Positions 18,719 through 22,996 of a stretch of 22,996 nt of DNA are shown here, one piece after another. Each line of letters begins with the position of its first letter. Position 1 is the first letter of the stretch. Under the pieces are notes generated by a model. The model searched no databases, was not told where the DNA came from, and worked only from the letters and a program-made list of their open reading frames with translations. Source of the DNA: Candidatus Atribacteria bacterium (GTDB taxonomy: Bacteria; Atribacterota; JS1; SB-45; 34-128); NCBI GenBank assembly GCA_003451675.1, contig DMCY01000001.1, forward strand, positions 1-22,996. Reading direction: 5' to 3'. Made by a program: the position numbers and the translations under genes.

Positions 18719-19957
18719 TTATTCTTCTCTTTCTCTATCAAGAACCAAAATAAGAGCTTTAACTACTTCGGGGTCAAATTGTTTTCCGGATTGATCTGTT
18801 AGCTCCTTTAATATCTTGTCTTTATCTAACTTTTTTCGATAAGGGCGATCAGAGTTCATGGCATCATAGGCATCAGCTACGGCAATTATTCTGGAAAATA
18901 TGGGTATATCCTTACTTTTTACTCCATCAGGATAGCCTTTACCATCATATCTTTCATGATGGTGATAGATTGCTTCATATGAATTTTTTAAAAAATCTAC
19001 CGGTTCTATGATATTAGCTCCCATAATCGTATGTTCTTTTATTTTTTCATACTCTTGATTTGTCAAACTATCTTTTTTTCCTAAGATTTTATCCGCTATG
19101 CCAATCTTTCCTATATCATGCAGTAAAGCGGTATATTCTATATTCTCAATGTCCCTATCAGATAAATTTAATTCTTGAGCTAAAGCTACAGAAGTTTCCG
19201 CCACTCTTTCTGAATGACCTTTAGTATAGGGATCTTTGGCATCAATGGCTGCTGCTAAAGCACGAATAGTATCCAAATATACTTTGCGCATCTTGGTATA
19301 TAATTCAAAAGAACGACGGGCCAGTAATAAAGGGAGAAAGAATAATAAAATACCCACAATGCCAACCTGTGTATAGACGATAGCCATAAGAAAACCCATG
19401 GGGGCTTCTGCTATATAACTAAGTACCGTATCCTTGATACTCGTCCTCCAAATTGTTCTTATTCTAACATTTTTAGCAAATGATACAACTAAAATAAATA
19501 ATGTTATGTTTATAATACAATAAGTTAAAGCGCAGATAGTAGCAGGAAAAATAAACCTAAAAATATTTTGTGCTCCCACAACTCCTCCTGCTTGTTGATA
19601 GGCAATACCAGCAATACCAGCTGTTAAAGCATATTGAGAGGTATTAAATATTATTTTATACCACGACACTTTCCTCTCAATTATTTCACCTATTAATGCA
19701 CCCAAAGCAGTTATTAACATGGCTAAGGCCGGTCCATAGACCAAAATCAGCACAAAATCTATAGGAAAACCGATGCTTACAACTCCTCCTATAGGCAAAT
19801 CAACCGGAATAAATTCAGCAAAGGTGGATATAGTAAGAAAAAAAATAATTGCCAACCAAGTATTAGAAAATGAGGGTAAAGAAGGTGATAAATATGTAAA
19901 AAGAGCGATAGCTAATGTTGTTATTACTATAATGTATATTTTTAATTTTAAAGACAA
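18719..19957 (-). CDS. Membrane-anchored HD-GYP domain protein (predicted cyclic-di-GMP phosphodiesterase)
   Basis: This 412-aa protein has an N-terminal membrane domain of about seven or eight hydrophobic segments (residues 7-215) with no recognised ligand motif. A short helix (YLDTIRALAAAIDAKDPYT) then leads into an HD-GYP domain (about 240-405). The catalytic HD pair is H280-D281 (LLHDIGKIGI), HHHER is at 331-335, GKGYPDG (the GYP signature) at 339-345, and ADAYDAM at 361-367. All metal-binding motifs are intact, so c-di-GMP hydrolysis is likely. It starts at TTG behind a GGGGGGG run; the only upstream ATG is in another frame and stops at once. It is followed without a gap by the DUF5317 gene and preceded by a tiny membrane-peptide ORF. 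Confidence 0.9.
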   Translation of the reverse strand: MSLKLKIYIIVITTLAIALFTYLSPSLPSFSNTWLAIIFFLTISTFAEFIPVDLPIGGVVSIGFPIDFVLILVYGPALAMLITALGALIGEIIERKVSWYKIIFNTSQYALTAGIAGIAYQQAGGVVGAQNIFRFIFPATICALTYCIINITLFILVVSFAKNVRIRTIWRTSIKDTVLSYIAEAPMGFLMAIVYTQVGIVGILLFFLPLLLARRSFELYTKMRKVYLDTIRALAAAIDAKDPYTKGHSERVAETSVALAQELNLSDRDIENIEYTALLHDIGKIGIADKILGKKDSLTNQEYEKIKEHTIMGANIIEPVDFLKNSYEAIYHHHERYDGKGYPDGVKSKDIPIFSRIIAVADAYDAMNSDRPYRKKLDKDKILKELTDQSGKQFDPEVVKALILVLDREREE

Positions 19958-20237: not shown

Positions 20238-20945
20238 TTATTTTTCTTTTGTTAAAATTCTACGATTAGTAGCTTTAAGGATTGCTTTTACTACTGCCTT
20301 ATTGAAGTCATCTTTAATTACCGTAGAACCTACTAAATTTTCCTTTCTTTTTGAATCGATTAGATTAATAGAAACTACCATTATTTCTTTACTATCTAAC
20401 TCAATCTTTTTTATTTCATCTACCTGAAAGAAAATTGAGCCCTCTAAATAAGAGCTTATCCCCTCTAAGGCAGCTTTAGCCACTAAATATTCCTGATTTT
20501 CGCCCCAATTTTTTCCAGATACTTTACCTTCATATATTTTTCCGTTATTTTCTAATTTTACACAAACTTCAAACTGATTACCGATAGTTCCCACTTTAAC
20601 ATCAGAGAATTTAAGTCTTAAAGAAGGTTCTGATTCTTCTTCCTTTATTTGCTCATCTCTTATTTCTTTATCCTTTACTTGCGCTATACTAATTTTTCTA
20701 TAATCTACTTGAATATTATATTTAGCTAATAAAAACGATTCTATATCTCGGGTGATTCTTTTGGGATTAGAAGAATCTTTAGTAATTATATGAATTTCTT
20801 TTATATCTCTATCCTCTGATAATACTATTTTCGCAAATAGAATATCACTTATATCTTTTAACGATTTTTCTATATCTTCTACTTCGTAATTAAAACGTCG
20901 GGGAATTATAAAATTACGAAATGCATGTAATTTATTTTTCTCCAT
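20238..20945 (-). CDS. Conserved protein of unknown function next to hpf
   Basis: This 235-aa soluble protein starts at ATG 20945, where AAGGAGGAATCT overlaps the hpf stop. A TTG at 20972 would extend it into hpf and has no ribosome site. The N-terminal half (about 20-90) contains EDIEKSLKDISDILFAKIVL, IKEIHIITKDSSNPKRITRD and IESFLLAKYNIQVDYRKISI. This resembles an alpha/beta module I associate with hypothetical proteins of Firmicutes-like anaerobes. A charged linker (EIRDEQIKEEESEP) leads to a second alpha/beta domain (LRLKFSDVKVGTIGNQFEV, YLVAKAALEGISSYLEGSIF, VIKDDFNKAVVKAILKATNR). No catalytic motif is evident. The 10-nt spacing from hpf suggests cotranscription with the hibernation factor. 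Confidence 0.75.
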   Translation of the reverse strand: MEKNKLHAFRNFIIPRRFNYEVEDIEKSLKDISDILFAKIVLSEDRDIKEIHIITKDSSNPKRITRDIESFLLAKYNIQVDYRKISIAQVKDKEIRDEQIKEEESEPSLRLKFSDVKVGTIGNQFEVCVKLENNGKIYEGKVSGKNWGENQEYLVAKAALEGISSYLEGSIFFQVDEIKKIELDSKEIMVVSINLIDSKRKENLVGSTVIKDDFNKAVVKAILKATNRRILTKEK

Positions 20946-20955
20946 AGATTCCTCC

Positions 20956-21495
20956 TTAAAATTCCGGCTCAATCAGTCCGAAATTCCCGTCTTTTCTTTT
21001 ATACAGAACATTAACTTTGTTGGTATTATCATTTGCAAAAACAAAAAAATTGTGTCCCAATAAATCCATTTGCATTGCCGCTTCTTCTACTGACATCGGT
21101 TTAATAGCAAATCTTTTAGTCTTTACAATTTTGGCAATCTTATCCGGCTCACTATCTTCAGCATTAATCCCTTTGTTAGCTAACCCTATTTTTTCTGTCC
21201 CGGGGTGGGGTTTCTGAAAATATTTTTCCTTATATTTCTTTATCTGTCTTTCTAATTTATCTGCTACTTTATCTATGGAAGTATACATATCATCTGTTTC
21301 TTCTTCTGCTCTGATCAAAGCCCTTCTTGCCTGCAAGGTTGCTTCAACAATTTGCCTATTTTTCTCTACACTTAAAGTTACTATTACTTCTAAGATATGA
21401 TCAAAATGTCTCTCGATCTTGCTTAACCTTTTTTCAATATAACTACGCATCGCATCTGTCACTTCAATATGTTTTCCTTTGAAAGTAATCTTCAT
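20956..21495 (-). CDS. hpf: Ribosome hibernation promoting factor, long form
   Basis: This 179-aa long HPF (also called RaiA/YvyD type) pairs ribosomes into inactive 100S dimers. The N-terminal domain (about 1-100) carries MKITFKGKHIEVTDAMRSYI, EKRLSKIERHF and TLQARRALIRAEEETDDMYT, which in the family binds the 30S decoding region. A linker leads to the C-terminal dimerisation domain (about 120-179; KRFAIKPMSVEEAAMQMDLL, HNFFVFANDNT, and the terminal DGNFGLIEPEF). The start has an AAGGAGGAAAGAG ribosome site. In Firmicutes the gene lies between comF and secA, as here. A structured raiA-like RNA lies upstream. Confidence 0.95.
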   Translation of the reverse strand: MKITFKGKHIEVTDAMRSYIEKRLSKIERHFDHILEVIVTLSVEKNRQIVEATLQARRALIRAEEETDDMYTSIDKVADKLERQIKKYKEKYFQKPHPGTEKIGLANKGINAEDSEPDKIAKIVKTKRFAIKPMSVEEAAMQMDLLGHNFFVFANDNTNKVNVLYKRKDGNFGLIEPEF

Positions 21496-21660
21496 ATCTC
21501 TTTCCTCCTTAGTAATAGTTTATTTTACTTAATATATATATTCTCCGTCTAAACAAAAAACCCTTTTTTATTTTAAATTTTTTTAAAAATATTTTTAATT
21601 TATTTTTTCCTTTTAATTTCTAATTGTTTTCCCTTCGTTAGCTATCTAAATATATTCTAT
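21496..21660. other. AT-rich leader between the raiA-like RNA and hpf
   Basis: This 165-bp stretch is almost pure A/T with no ORF. On the minus strand TTGTTT and TATTAA with 16-bp spacing (in the 21529-21557 area) could serve as an hpf promoter. An AAAAAAGGGTTTTTT word just upstream could end the RNA. Neither is strong. Confidence 0.3.
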
Positions 21661-21889
21661 CCGCCTTTCCTCAGACTGACCTGGTCTTTGCCCCCACACT
21701 CGCCTGCTGAGAGGTTTGCTTAGGAACTTTATCCTTTACTACTACTCTTCTCTTATTGTTCTAACCTGTTAAGGTTAAGGCAGGACTTACTCCAAAGCCG
21801 CACCATGCTCAGTAACCAAAGTTACCTTACGTGGGTCGTTTCGCCTGCGACTGGCTTCGACTTTCAACCACAGCTCTAAGGAGAGGCGG
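21661..21889 (-). ncRNA. Candidate raiA-type structured noncoding RNA
   Basis: This 229-nt element has roughly half G+C inside very A/T-rich DNA, lies between comF and hpf (raiA), and contains no usable ORF. Its ends pair: CCGCCTTTCCTCAGA (21661-21675) with TCTAAGGAGAGGCGG (21875-21889), 15 positions with one mismatch and one G-T pair. Inside are GTAAC-caaa-GTTAC (21812-21825), TAACC/GGTTA near 21762-21777, and GTCG/CGAC around 21836-21851. A TATAAA box on the minus strand (21904-21899) sits about 10 nt before the 5' end of the stem, supporting transcription toward hpf. Size, compact multi-stem form and location upstream of hpf match the raiA RNA motif described from Firmicutes and Actinobacteria. 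The identification rests on context and structure plus remembered sequence likeness (GGTAACTTTGGTTACTGAGC). A mobile element with terminal inverted repeats is the alternative. Confidence 0.72.
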
Positions 21890-21899
21890 TATATGAGCT

Positions 21900-22655
21900 T
21901 TATACGGTTCGGGCTAAAGTTAAAACGAATATATTCTTTGCTCGAGCTTTTATTAATTCCTTAGCACATTCTTCTACAGTAGCTCCGGTAGTAAAAACAT
22001 CATCTAAAATCAGAATATTTTTCCCTTTAATTTCTTCTGTTTTTTCTACCGAAAAAGCCCTAAGAATATTTTTTACCCTTTCTTTCTTAGATAAATTAAC
22101 CTGAAAAGGGGTTAACTTTTTCTTTATTATAATCTTTTCTCCAACCGGGATAGAAAAATAATCTCCTATGACTTTACTCAACAAAACGCTCTGATTAAAT
22201 CCCCTTCTCTTTAAATCATTCTTATGTAAAGGAACAGGAATAATTATGTCAAATTTATTTTCAAATTCATTATTTTTTAATAAATAATCCACCATTAACT
22301 TTCCTAATGCTTTAGCCAACTTTTTCTCTCCATAGTATTTAAAGAGATGAATGCATTTTTTTAATACCTTATCGTATACTCCAGTAGAACGAGAGAATTC
22401 AAAAGAATATTTTTTTCTTTTACAATCAAGGCATAGGATTTCTCTGTTTTGCTTAAAAACATCAGTAGGTATTAAAGGTTTTCCGCACTTTACGCAATAA
22501 GGTCGTTCGATTAATTCAATGGTTTTAAAACAATCTTCACAAATCGAGAATCCTTTAGATTCTCGGATAGGTTTTTCGCATATCTTACAATCTAAGGGAA
22601 AAACAAAATTAAGCAACCCTTCTTTTATATATTCTATCATACTTTGATTATTCAT
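21900..22655 (-). CDS. comFC: ComF family protein (phosphoribosyltransferase fold)
   Basis: This 251-aa ComF/ComFC protein is required for DNA uptake in competent bacteria and is also widespread in non-competent ones. The N-terminus holds four Cys pairs that bind zinc (C23/C26, C39/C42, C54/C57, C75/C78; e.g. CKICEKP, CVKCGKP, CLDCKRK). The phosphoribosyltransferase-like core follows: VPLHKNDLKRRGFNQS at 141-156 and the PRPP-loop-like ILDDVFTTGATVEECAKEL at 216-234. The start ATG is preceded by TTAAGGTTAGT. It ends just ahead of the raiA-like RNA, whose probable -10 box overlaps its last codons. The comF - hpf neighbourhood is typical of Firmicutes-like genomes. Confidence 0.93.
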   Translation of the reverse strand: MNNQSMIEYIKEGLLNFVFPLDCKICEKPIRESKGFSICEDCFKTIELIERPYCVKCGKPLIPTDVFKQNREILCLDCKRKKYSFEFSRSTGVYDKVLKKCIHLFKYYGEKKLAKALGKLMVDYLLKNNEFENKFDIIIPVPLHKNDLKRRGFNQSVLLSKVIGDYFSIPVGEKIIIKKKLTPFQVNLSKKERVKNILRAFSVEKTEEIKGKNILILDDVFTTGATVEECAKELIKARAKNIFVLTLARTV

Positions 22656-22671
22656 ACTAACCTTAATTTAT

Positions 22672-22746
22672 TAGGTCTGTGTCAACTCTTTGGGGGTAGT
22701 TTTCTTTGGTGAAAAAAATTCTTCTGGTTTTGGGCAGACCTACCCC
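22672..22746. repeat. Competing inverted repeats upstream of comF (possible mobile-element end)
   Basis: The segment CAGACCTACCCC (22735-22746) can pair either with TAGGTCTG (22672-22679) or with the GGGGGTAG word at about 22692-22699, so two mutually exclusive stems exist. The minus-strand words AGTTGACACAGACC here and AGTTGATACCGATG near 22773-22786 are near-repeats and resemble the ends of some insertion sequences. No transposase is identified with certainty. Confidence 0.35.
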
Positions 22747-22807
22747 TTATTTTATTTAGGTTATGATAATACATCGGTATCAACTTTCTTATATTTTCTT
22801 TAACTGA

Positions 22808-22996
22808 TTAATAATATCCTGCTTCCGTGAGTTTACGCAAAACACCTACCCAGGGTTTACCCTGATCCGGTCCGGAAAGAGCGGGTATGGTTACCTCGAT
22901 AAGAGGAGAAGTCTCTGTCTCTTTCTTAAAGCAGGAAGCAGATAGAGGTGGTTTGTATTTGCCTACTTTAATATTTCGTTCTCTTTCGGTCTCCCA
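22808..22996 (-). CDS. C-terminal 62 codons of an unrecognised protein (cut by window edge)
   Basis: The minus strand is open from the right edge to a TAA at 22808. The peptide begins WETERERNIKVGKYKPPLSA, includes ETSPLIEVTIPALSGPDQGK and ends PWVGVLRKLTEAGYY. I do not recognise it. The codons are richer in G+C than those of most genes here, similar to the left-edge gene. The flanking repeats could mean it is the end of a transposase, but nothing in the peptide proves that. Confidence 0.5.
   Translation of the reverse strand, partial: WETERERNIKVGKYKPPLSASCFKKETETSPLIEVTIPALSGPDQGKPWVGVLRKLTEAGYY

Follow-up and report, generated by a model that had tools for sequence, protein, structure and literature searches.

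A short GC-rich stretch between comF and hpf in a draft genome of Candidatus Atribacteria bacterium folds strongly enough to raise the question of what it encodes, how it came to this phylum and what it might do there. An earlier note, made from the letters of the window alone (the whole 22,996-nucleotide stretch of contig DMCY01000001.1 analysed here), took it for a raiA RNA outside the classical phyla of that family. According to the available text of PMC11706538, raiA RNA acts in trans in Clostridioides difficile and Clostridium acetobutylicum and is among the most abundant RNAs during growth; its loss alters sporulation and, depending on the species, stationary-phase entry or aggregation, and in C. 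difficile it raises c-di-GMP. The same text gives the range of the RNA as Bacillota and Actinomycetota, with a 'mostly' in one place. The available parts of PMC11706538, PMC11751092, PMC12286853, PMC11477304, PMC12452182 and PMC11701678 do not place raiA RNA in Atribacterota, and we found no literature that does, nor any on noncoding RNA or sporulation in Atribacterota; a listing among the Rfam members, in Weinberg 2017 or in Soares 2024 may exist. Here we demonstrate, by comparing sequences, that the RNA belongs to the raiA family, keeps a conserved fold with pseudoknot pk-1, occurs as a single copy in a constant place after comF and descends within one clade.

A cmscan search of the whole window gave a single match above cut-off, a full-length match on the minus strand to the Rfam raiA model RF03072 (21883-21667; model positions 1-209 of 209; E 2.1e-43) that scores 170.0 bits against a cut-off of 101.3, as the earlier note had anticipated for this model and strand. 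ARAGORN found no tRNA in the window. The GC content is 48.6% at 21660-21879 and 22.7-35.5% in the surrounding 220-nt steps (21000-22539) that overlap the RNA by less than 12 nt or not at all, which bears out the impression of a GC-rich island in AT-rich DNA. The minus strand of 21661-21889 folds at -79.6 kcal/mol (z = -3.42), and 0 of 200 shuffles was equally low. The terminal stem thought to close the island is also present: positions 21882-21875 pair with 21668-21675, and an extension of helix P1 pairs 21889-21884 with 21661-21666.

Features of the raiA RNA locus (positions of the window)
Feature	Position	Strand	Basis or remark
hpf, long-form ribosome hibernation promoting factor (HPF/YfiA family)	20956..21495	-	PF02482 and PF16321; TIGR00741 above cut-off
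raiA RNA including extended outer stem P1	21661..21889	-	Fold and covarying pairs, 21 Atribacterota sequences
raiA (ModT) structured RNA core, RF03072 positions 1-209	21667..21883	-	cmscan
pk-loop, 3' half of pseudoknot pk-1	21796..21802	-	7/7 pairs standard in 21/21 rows
P3 loop, 5' half of pseudoknot pk-1	21846..21852	-	7/7 pairs standard in 21/21 rows
TATAAA box, overlapping the comF stop codon (21902-21900)	21899..21904	-	Sequence; promoter role doubtful
comF/comFC-like (double zinc ribbon and phosphoribosyltransferase)	21900..22655	-	PF18912 and PF00156 above cut-off

Conservation in relatives supports this fold. A 62-pair structure, combining the published pk-1 with the fold of the window and the Rfam alignment, was counted on MAFFT alignments. 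Across 21 Atribacterota rows (window included), 98.7% of 1302 cells are paired, a count that leans towards the structure because the window's own fold was one of its sources; versions of the structure slid along the alignment pair just 27-43%. Two-sided changes occur at 13 of the 62 pairs (shuffled mean 5.8) and the covariation score is 0.149 versus 0.094 when shuffled, each reached by 0 of 500 shuffles, which do not keep the relatedness of the rows; further pair types, one of five measures, were as many in 8 of 500. When seven Bacillota RNAs were added, 96.1% of 1736 cells were paired and 26 of the 62 pairs had two-sided changes, so that the proposed check for covariation supports the fold in both sets. 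Both sides have changed in some relatives at 9 of the 17 pairs of P1, the three outermost of which show two-sided changes yet are unpaired in 4-5 of the 21 rows. Core positions are invariant at 129 of 217 across the Atribacterota rows and at 100 of 217 across all 28 RNAs. The Rfam match, the neighbouring comF and hpf genes and the covariation all agree on membership of the raiA family.

The RNA shares helices P1 and P3-P8, pk-1 (as drawn) and a strongly conserved core with raiA RNA as defined by RF03072/ModT. The available text of PMC11751092 describes pk-1 between the P3 loop and the pk-loop, and in both C. acetobutylicum structures (9CXF, 9ELY; PMC11751092 and PMC12286853, in the parts available), which cryo-EM found to be a compact monomer, it likewise has seven pairs. 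Here all seven are standard pairs in every one of the 21 Atribacterota rows, and with the seven Bacillota rows 98.5% of pk-1 cells are paired; as the changes within pk-1 are one-sided only, its support from covariation is weak. Under an inferred numbering offset, A28, A44 and A45 of C. acetobutylicum, which form P1-P3 base pairs, correspond to positions identical in 28 of 28 RNAs, whereas the stacking A43 and A46 fall on variable positions. A further difference from the C. acetobutylicum RNA is that P7 and P8 vary in length among the rows here.

We then asked how widely the RNA occurs. Among the best 80 of 171 hpf relatives, the first eight, all titled Atribacteria or Atribacterota, are 93-70% identical to the window's hpf over 179 residues, and the ninth, from Desulfitobacteriaceae (Bacillota), is 56% identical; the titles of these nearest hpf relatives assign the window to Atribacterota. 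The RNA lies upstream of hpf at 8 of 8 of these closest Atribacterota loci, and all eight genomes have exactly one copy. Altogether 20 of 50 Atribacterota genomes (these eight included) carry the RNA, again once each and with RF03072 scores of 166-180 bits; it was found in none of the other 30 and in 0 of 14 control genomes. The carriers are, we assume, of the JS1 kind. An hpf match was found in 22 of the 30 non-carriers and in none of eight (G014, G018, G027, G032, G035, G037, G039 and G040). We also considered that non-carriers might have a degenerate or low-scoring raiA RNA close to hpf, but RF03072 matched at 0 of 10 such loci with E up to 5.

Outside Atribacterota, 7 of 40 genomes (drawn from 40 of 72 non-Atribacterota loci) have the RNA, all of them with Bacillota-titled loci, and within the stretches examined it was found at 0 of 10 loci titled outside Bacillota and Atribacterota. 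Our large-scale search outside Atribacterota covered three phyla, and absence elsewhere is not claimed. With at most nine candidates scored per genome, the RNA was found in 0 of 245 genomes in the phylum of L031 (Nitrospiraceae) and 0 of 247 in that of L078 (titled Deltaproteobacteria), in scans in which no control genome gave a signal; the same setting, applied to the phylum of L010 (Natronincola), put 19 of 249 genomes over the cut-off and 26 at E up to 0.001. Seven further matches from this last phylum (L178-L184) lie below the cut-off at 42-57 bits, six of them being 113-120 nt long with model ends 1-209. They may be shortened raiA RNA variants and were excluded from the RNA tree and the promoter counts. 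One exact RNA pattern had no match in viral contigs, which shows little about carriage by phages. The Atribacterota RNA is a genuine member of the raiA family from a phylum beyond those named in the available text of PMC11706538, and the range of the family is widened as the earlier note had proposed.

To place the carriers among their relatives, we built a quick RpoB tree from 42 of the 50 genomes with nine outgroup rows. Seventeen carriers group with two non-carriers (G037, G039) in one clade, and 21 other non-carriers make up a second, each with support 100; the non-carrier G034 branches beside the second clade. The partial row of G040 (L228) has a false long branch and place; another partial row with a false long branch (L159, from G022) was left out, the split pieces L229-L234 were unused, G002 was left out of both RpoB searches, and G027, G029, G035 and G041 had no RpoB match. 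Because neither G037 nor G039 has an hpf match, the locus may be missing from their assemblies, an explanation that is not certain, as hpf is also unmatched in four non-carriers that either belong to the other clade or have no place in the tree. In the RNA tree, 21 Atribacterota RNAs lie on one side of a branch and 25 Bacillota RNAs on the other (support 99/97), and the Atribacterota RNAs split into two less well supported groups (93/86 and 93/87), each with a counterpart in the RpoB and hpf trees. The hpf tree took the 20 of 24 non-carrier hpf loci that were long enough. Its 35 Bacillota rows make up one side of a branch (96/92) with the carriers outside; the carriers fall into two groups that are unjoined in the best tree and joined in 56% of bootstrap trees.

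These trees bear on whether the RNA, comF and hpf were transferred together from Bacillota into this Atribacterota clade and so are not ancestral to the phylum, a reading that we entertain but tend to doubt. It would fit the absence of the RNA from all 22 non-carriers that RpoB places outside the carrier clade, the identity of the window's hpf, which reaches 56% with Bacillota hpf versus 39-46% with the 20 longest non-carrier hpf matches, and the failure to find comF in the stretches read around the hpf of non-carriers. Against it, the carrier hpf is not nested in Bacillota, whose rows keep to one side of the hpf tree, and a single branch sets the Atribacterota and Bacillota RNAs apart. The trees are not rooted well enough to decide between an ancient transfer and ancient inheritance followed by loss in the other clade.

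The neighbouring genes show what the RNA has kept company with. Its position between comF and hpf, with comF upstream, hpf downstream and both on the same strand, was read correctly in the earlier note and holds in relatives: comF is the immediate upstream neighbour in all 21 Atribacterota copies, the window's among them, with 7-34 nt (median 16) between its stop codon and the RNA, and hpf lies downstream in 20 of 21. The window's comF-like gene also matches the NCBIfam models TIGR00201 (comF) and NF008616 (GntX), below their own cut-offs. The order of comF, RNA and hpf is frequent but not obligatory in the RF03072 family, for which comF upstream (74%) and hpf downstream (66%) are the commonest neighbours (Soares et al., cited in PMC11706538, available text). 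Of 25 Bacillota copies (7 from Bacillota-titled loci and 18 from the phylum of L010), three had a comF in the 1.5 kb upstream, at 50-84 nt, a looser spacing than in Atribacterota, and seven an hpf downstream, counts that may miss distant neighbours since these were sought with profiles from Atribacterota proteins.

A cis-acting leader or riboswitch controlling the translation or transcription of hpf would suit the gene order, since hpf follows the RNA on the same strand in 20 of the 21 copies, and Rfam classes RF03072 as cis-regulatory, riboswitch; we nevertheless find this reading improbable. The distance from RNA to hpf ranges from 80 to 319 nt in 19 copies (326 nt in L084, a run of N counted in), and in one copy (L090, a 3054-base contig of G038) no hpf was found within 1500 nt downstream of the RNA, comF and the RNA being kept and another gene on the same strand, which we take to be nucleoside phosphorylase-like, starting about 300 nt past the RNA. 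This gene order reflects either a rearrangement or a misjoin of the 3-kb draft contig. The variable distance and this one absence argue against a switch of hpf, and if the contig is correctly joined, comF is the more strictly kept neighbour of the RNA. No terminator-like hairpin was found in 21400-22000, a weak test given a shuffled mean of 0.5. In the available text of PMC11706538 the clostridial phenotype was complemented in trans, and in that of PMC11477304 family members often lie hundreds of nucleotides from, or opposite to, the next gene. The GC-rich island with its closing inverted repeat might also suggest a mobile repeat, MITE-like or other, but this reading is rejected in the relatives and strikes us as extremely improbable, since the multi-copy test that the earlier note had set for it found one copy in each of the 20 carrier genomes, in a fixed place after comF, with the Rfam match and with covariation beyond the outer stem too.

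Several smaller observations concern the surroundings of the RNA. In L084, positions 1718-2044 hold the run of N followed by a repeat of the 3' end of the RNA before hpf, which looks like a scaffolding overlap and not a true repeat. Between the RNA and hpf, in window 21496-21620, AATAAAAAAGGGTTTTTT and later GAGAATATA...AAACTATTACT recur in close relatives and are possibly an hpf promoter or a weak terminator. Upstream of comF, window 22670-22996 contains inverted GGGGTAG/CTACCCC words and, at the window edge, a 62-amino-acid open frame without a Pfam or NCBIfam match; a 19-letter exact pattern from this stretch, possibly a mobile-element remnant, was found in 0 of 254 loci.

We also looked for a promoter of the RNA itself. 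The TATAAA box that the earlier note had pointed out is present on the minus strand (21904-21899), but conservation does not support a promoter role for it: it overlaps the comF stop codon, and only 9 of the 21 Atribacterota copies have a TATAAA in the 45 nt before the RNA, which makes it weak evidence for a promoter. A sigma-70-type scan of the 60 nt upstream and the first 5 nt of the RNA gave mean best scores of 7.8 of 12 in Atribacterota (n = 21; 7.7 shuffled) and 9.8 of 12 in Bacillota (n = 25; 7.6 shuffled), where four copies (L160, L169, L175 and L177) score at most 8. This contrast is suggestive only, because control upstreams score near their shuffles and the scan is low-powered in these genomes: 148 Atribacterota gene upstreams of 110 nt each averaged 8.47 (8.38 shuffled) and nine Atribacterota tRNA genes 8.44 (7.83 shuffled). 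The C. difficile RNA has a housekeeping-type promoter, whereas no clear sigma-70-type promoter was found here, with the same weak control. Part of the short gap after comF is taken up by the outer stem, which would place any promoter of the RNA largely within comF. The closeness of the comF stop codon and the lack of a standout sigma-70-type promoter in this low-powered scan suggest that the RNA derives from the comF transcript.

Genes beyond hpf were inspected for a link to c-di-GMP. Directly after hpf lies a gene for a 244-amino-acid protein (20238-20972) without a Pfam or NCBIfam match, present in all 18 carrier loci and in 9 of 10 non-carrier loci. Two genes past hpf, window 18719-19957 encodes an HD-GYP type protein with HD_5 and MASE9 domains and the motif HHERYDGKGYP, which we take to be the HD-GYP signature. 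The order of hpf, the 244-amino-acid gene and HD-GYP is found in 17 of 18 carrier loci, L006 stopping short of HD-GYP, and DUF5317 follows in 16 (L006 and L239 end early). As a pointer to c-di-GMP, however, HD-GYP is non-specific and was rejected, since the same order, DUF5317 included, occurs in 9 of 10 non-carrier loci; in the tenth (L254), secA directly follows hpf. GGDEF (PF00990) was found in 50 of 50 Atribacterota genomes, including those without the RNA, and so does not correlate with it. With HD-GYP in the clade that lacks the RNA and GGDEF in every genome, neither is evidence for a c-di-GMP link.

Our preferred account, which we consider likely, is of a raiA (ModT) RNA gene of an Atribacterota bacterium that is very probably functional. 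Its product would work as in clostridia, as a free and compact RNA that acts in trans and takes part in controlling growth phase, and would not be a switch for hpf. Less surely, comF and the RNA would share a transcript from which the RNA is then cut out at the long outer stem, as the comF reading frame leaves hardly any space for a promoter outside it. Markers of sporulation were sought in all 50 Atribacterota genomes: Spo0A (PF08769) was found in none, with Bacillus subtilis the sole positive of 14 controls, and SpoIVA (PF09547) likewise in none, with signals in the controls B. subtilis and Thermotoga maritima, one of them over the cut-off. The carriers differ in this from the spore-forming clostridia with raiA RNA, and the role of the RNA need not be tied to sporulation. 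To judge from gene content, a role in sporulation is unlikely in Atribacterota and the clostridial sporulation phenotype probably cannot apply to this copy; a growth-phase or c-di-GMP role is possible.

Tentatively, we suggest that one clade of Atribacterota carries a promoterless raiA RNA, cut from the comF transcript at its outer stem, whose growth-phase role, perhaps through c-di-GMP, would predate sporulation and be independent of it. The phenotypes that the available text of PMC11706538 describes for this RNA come from spore-forming clostridia, and Atribacterota separates the RNA from sporulation. The RNA has been retained in 20 genomes of one clade, and its 21 covarying sequences can be used to map what the fold must keep.
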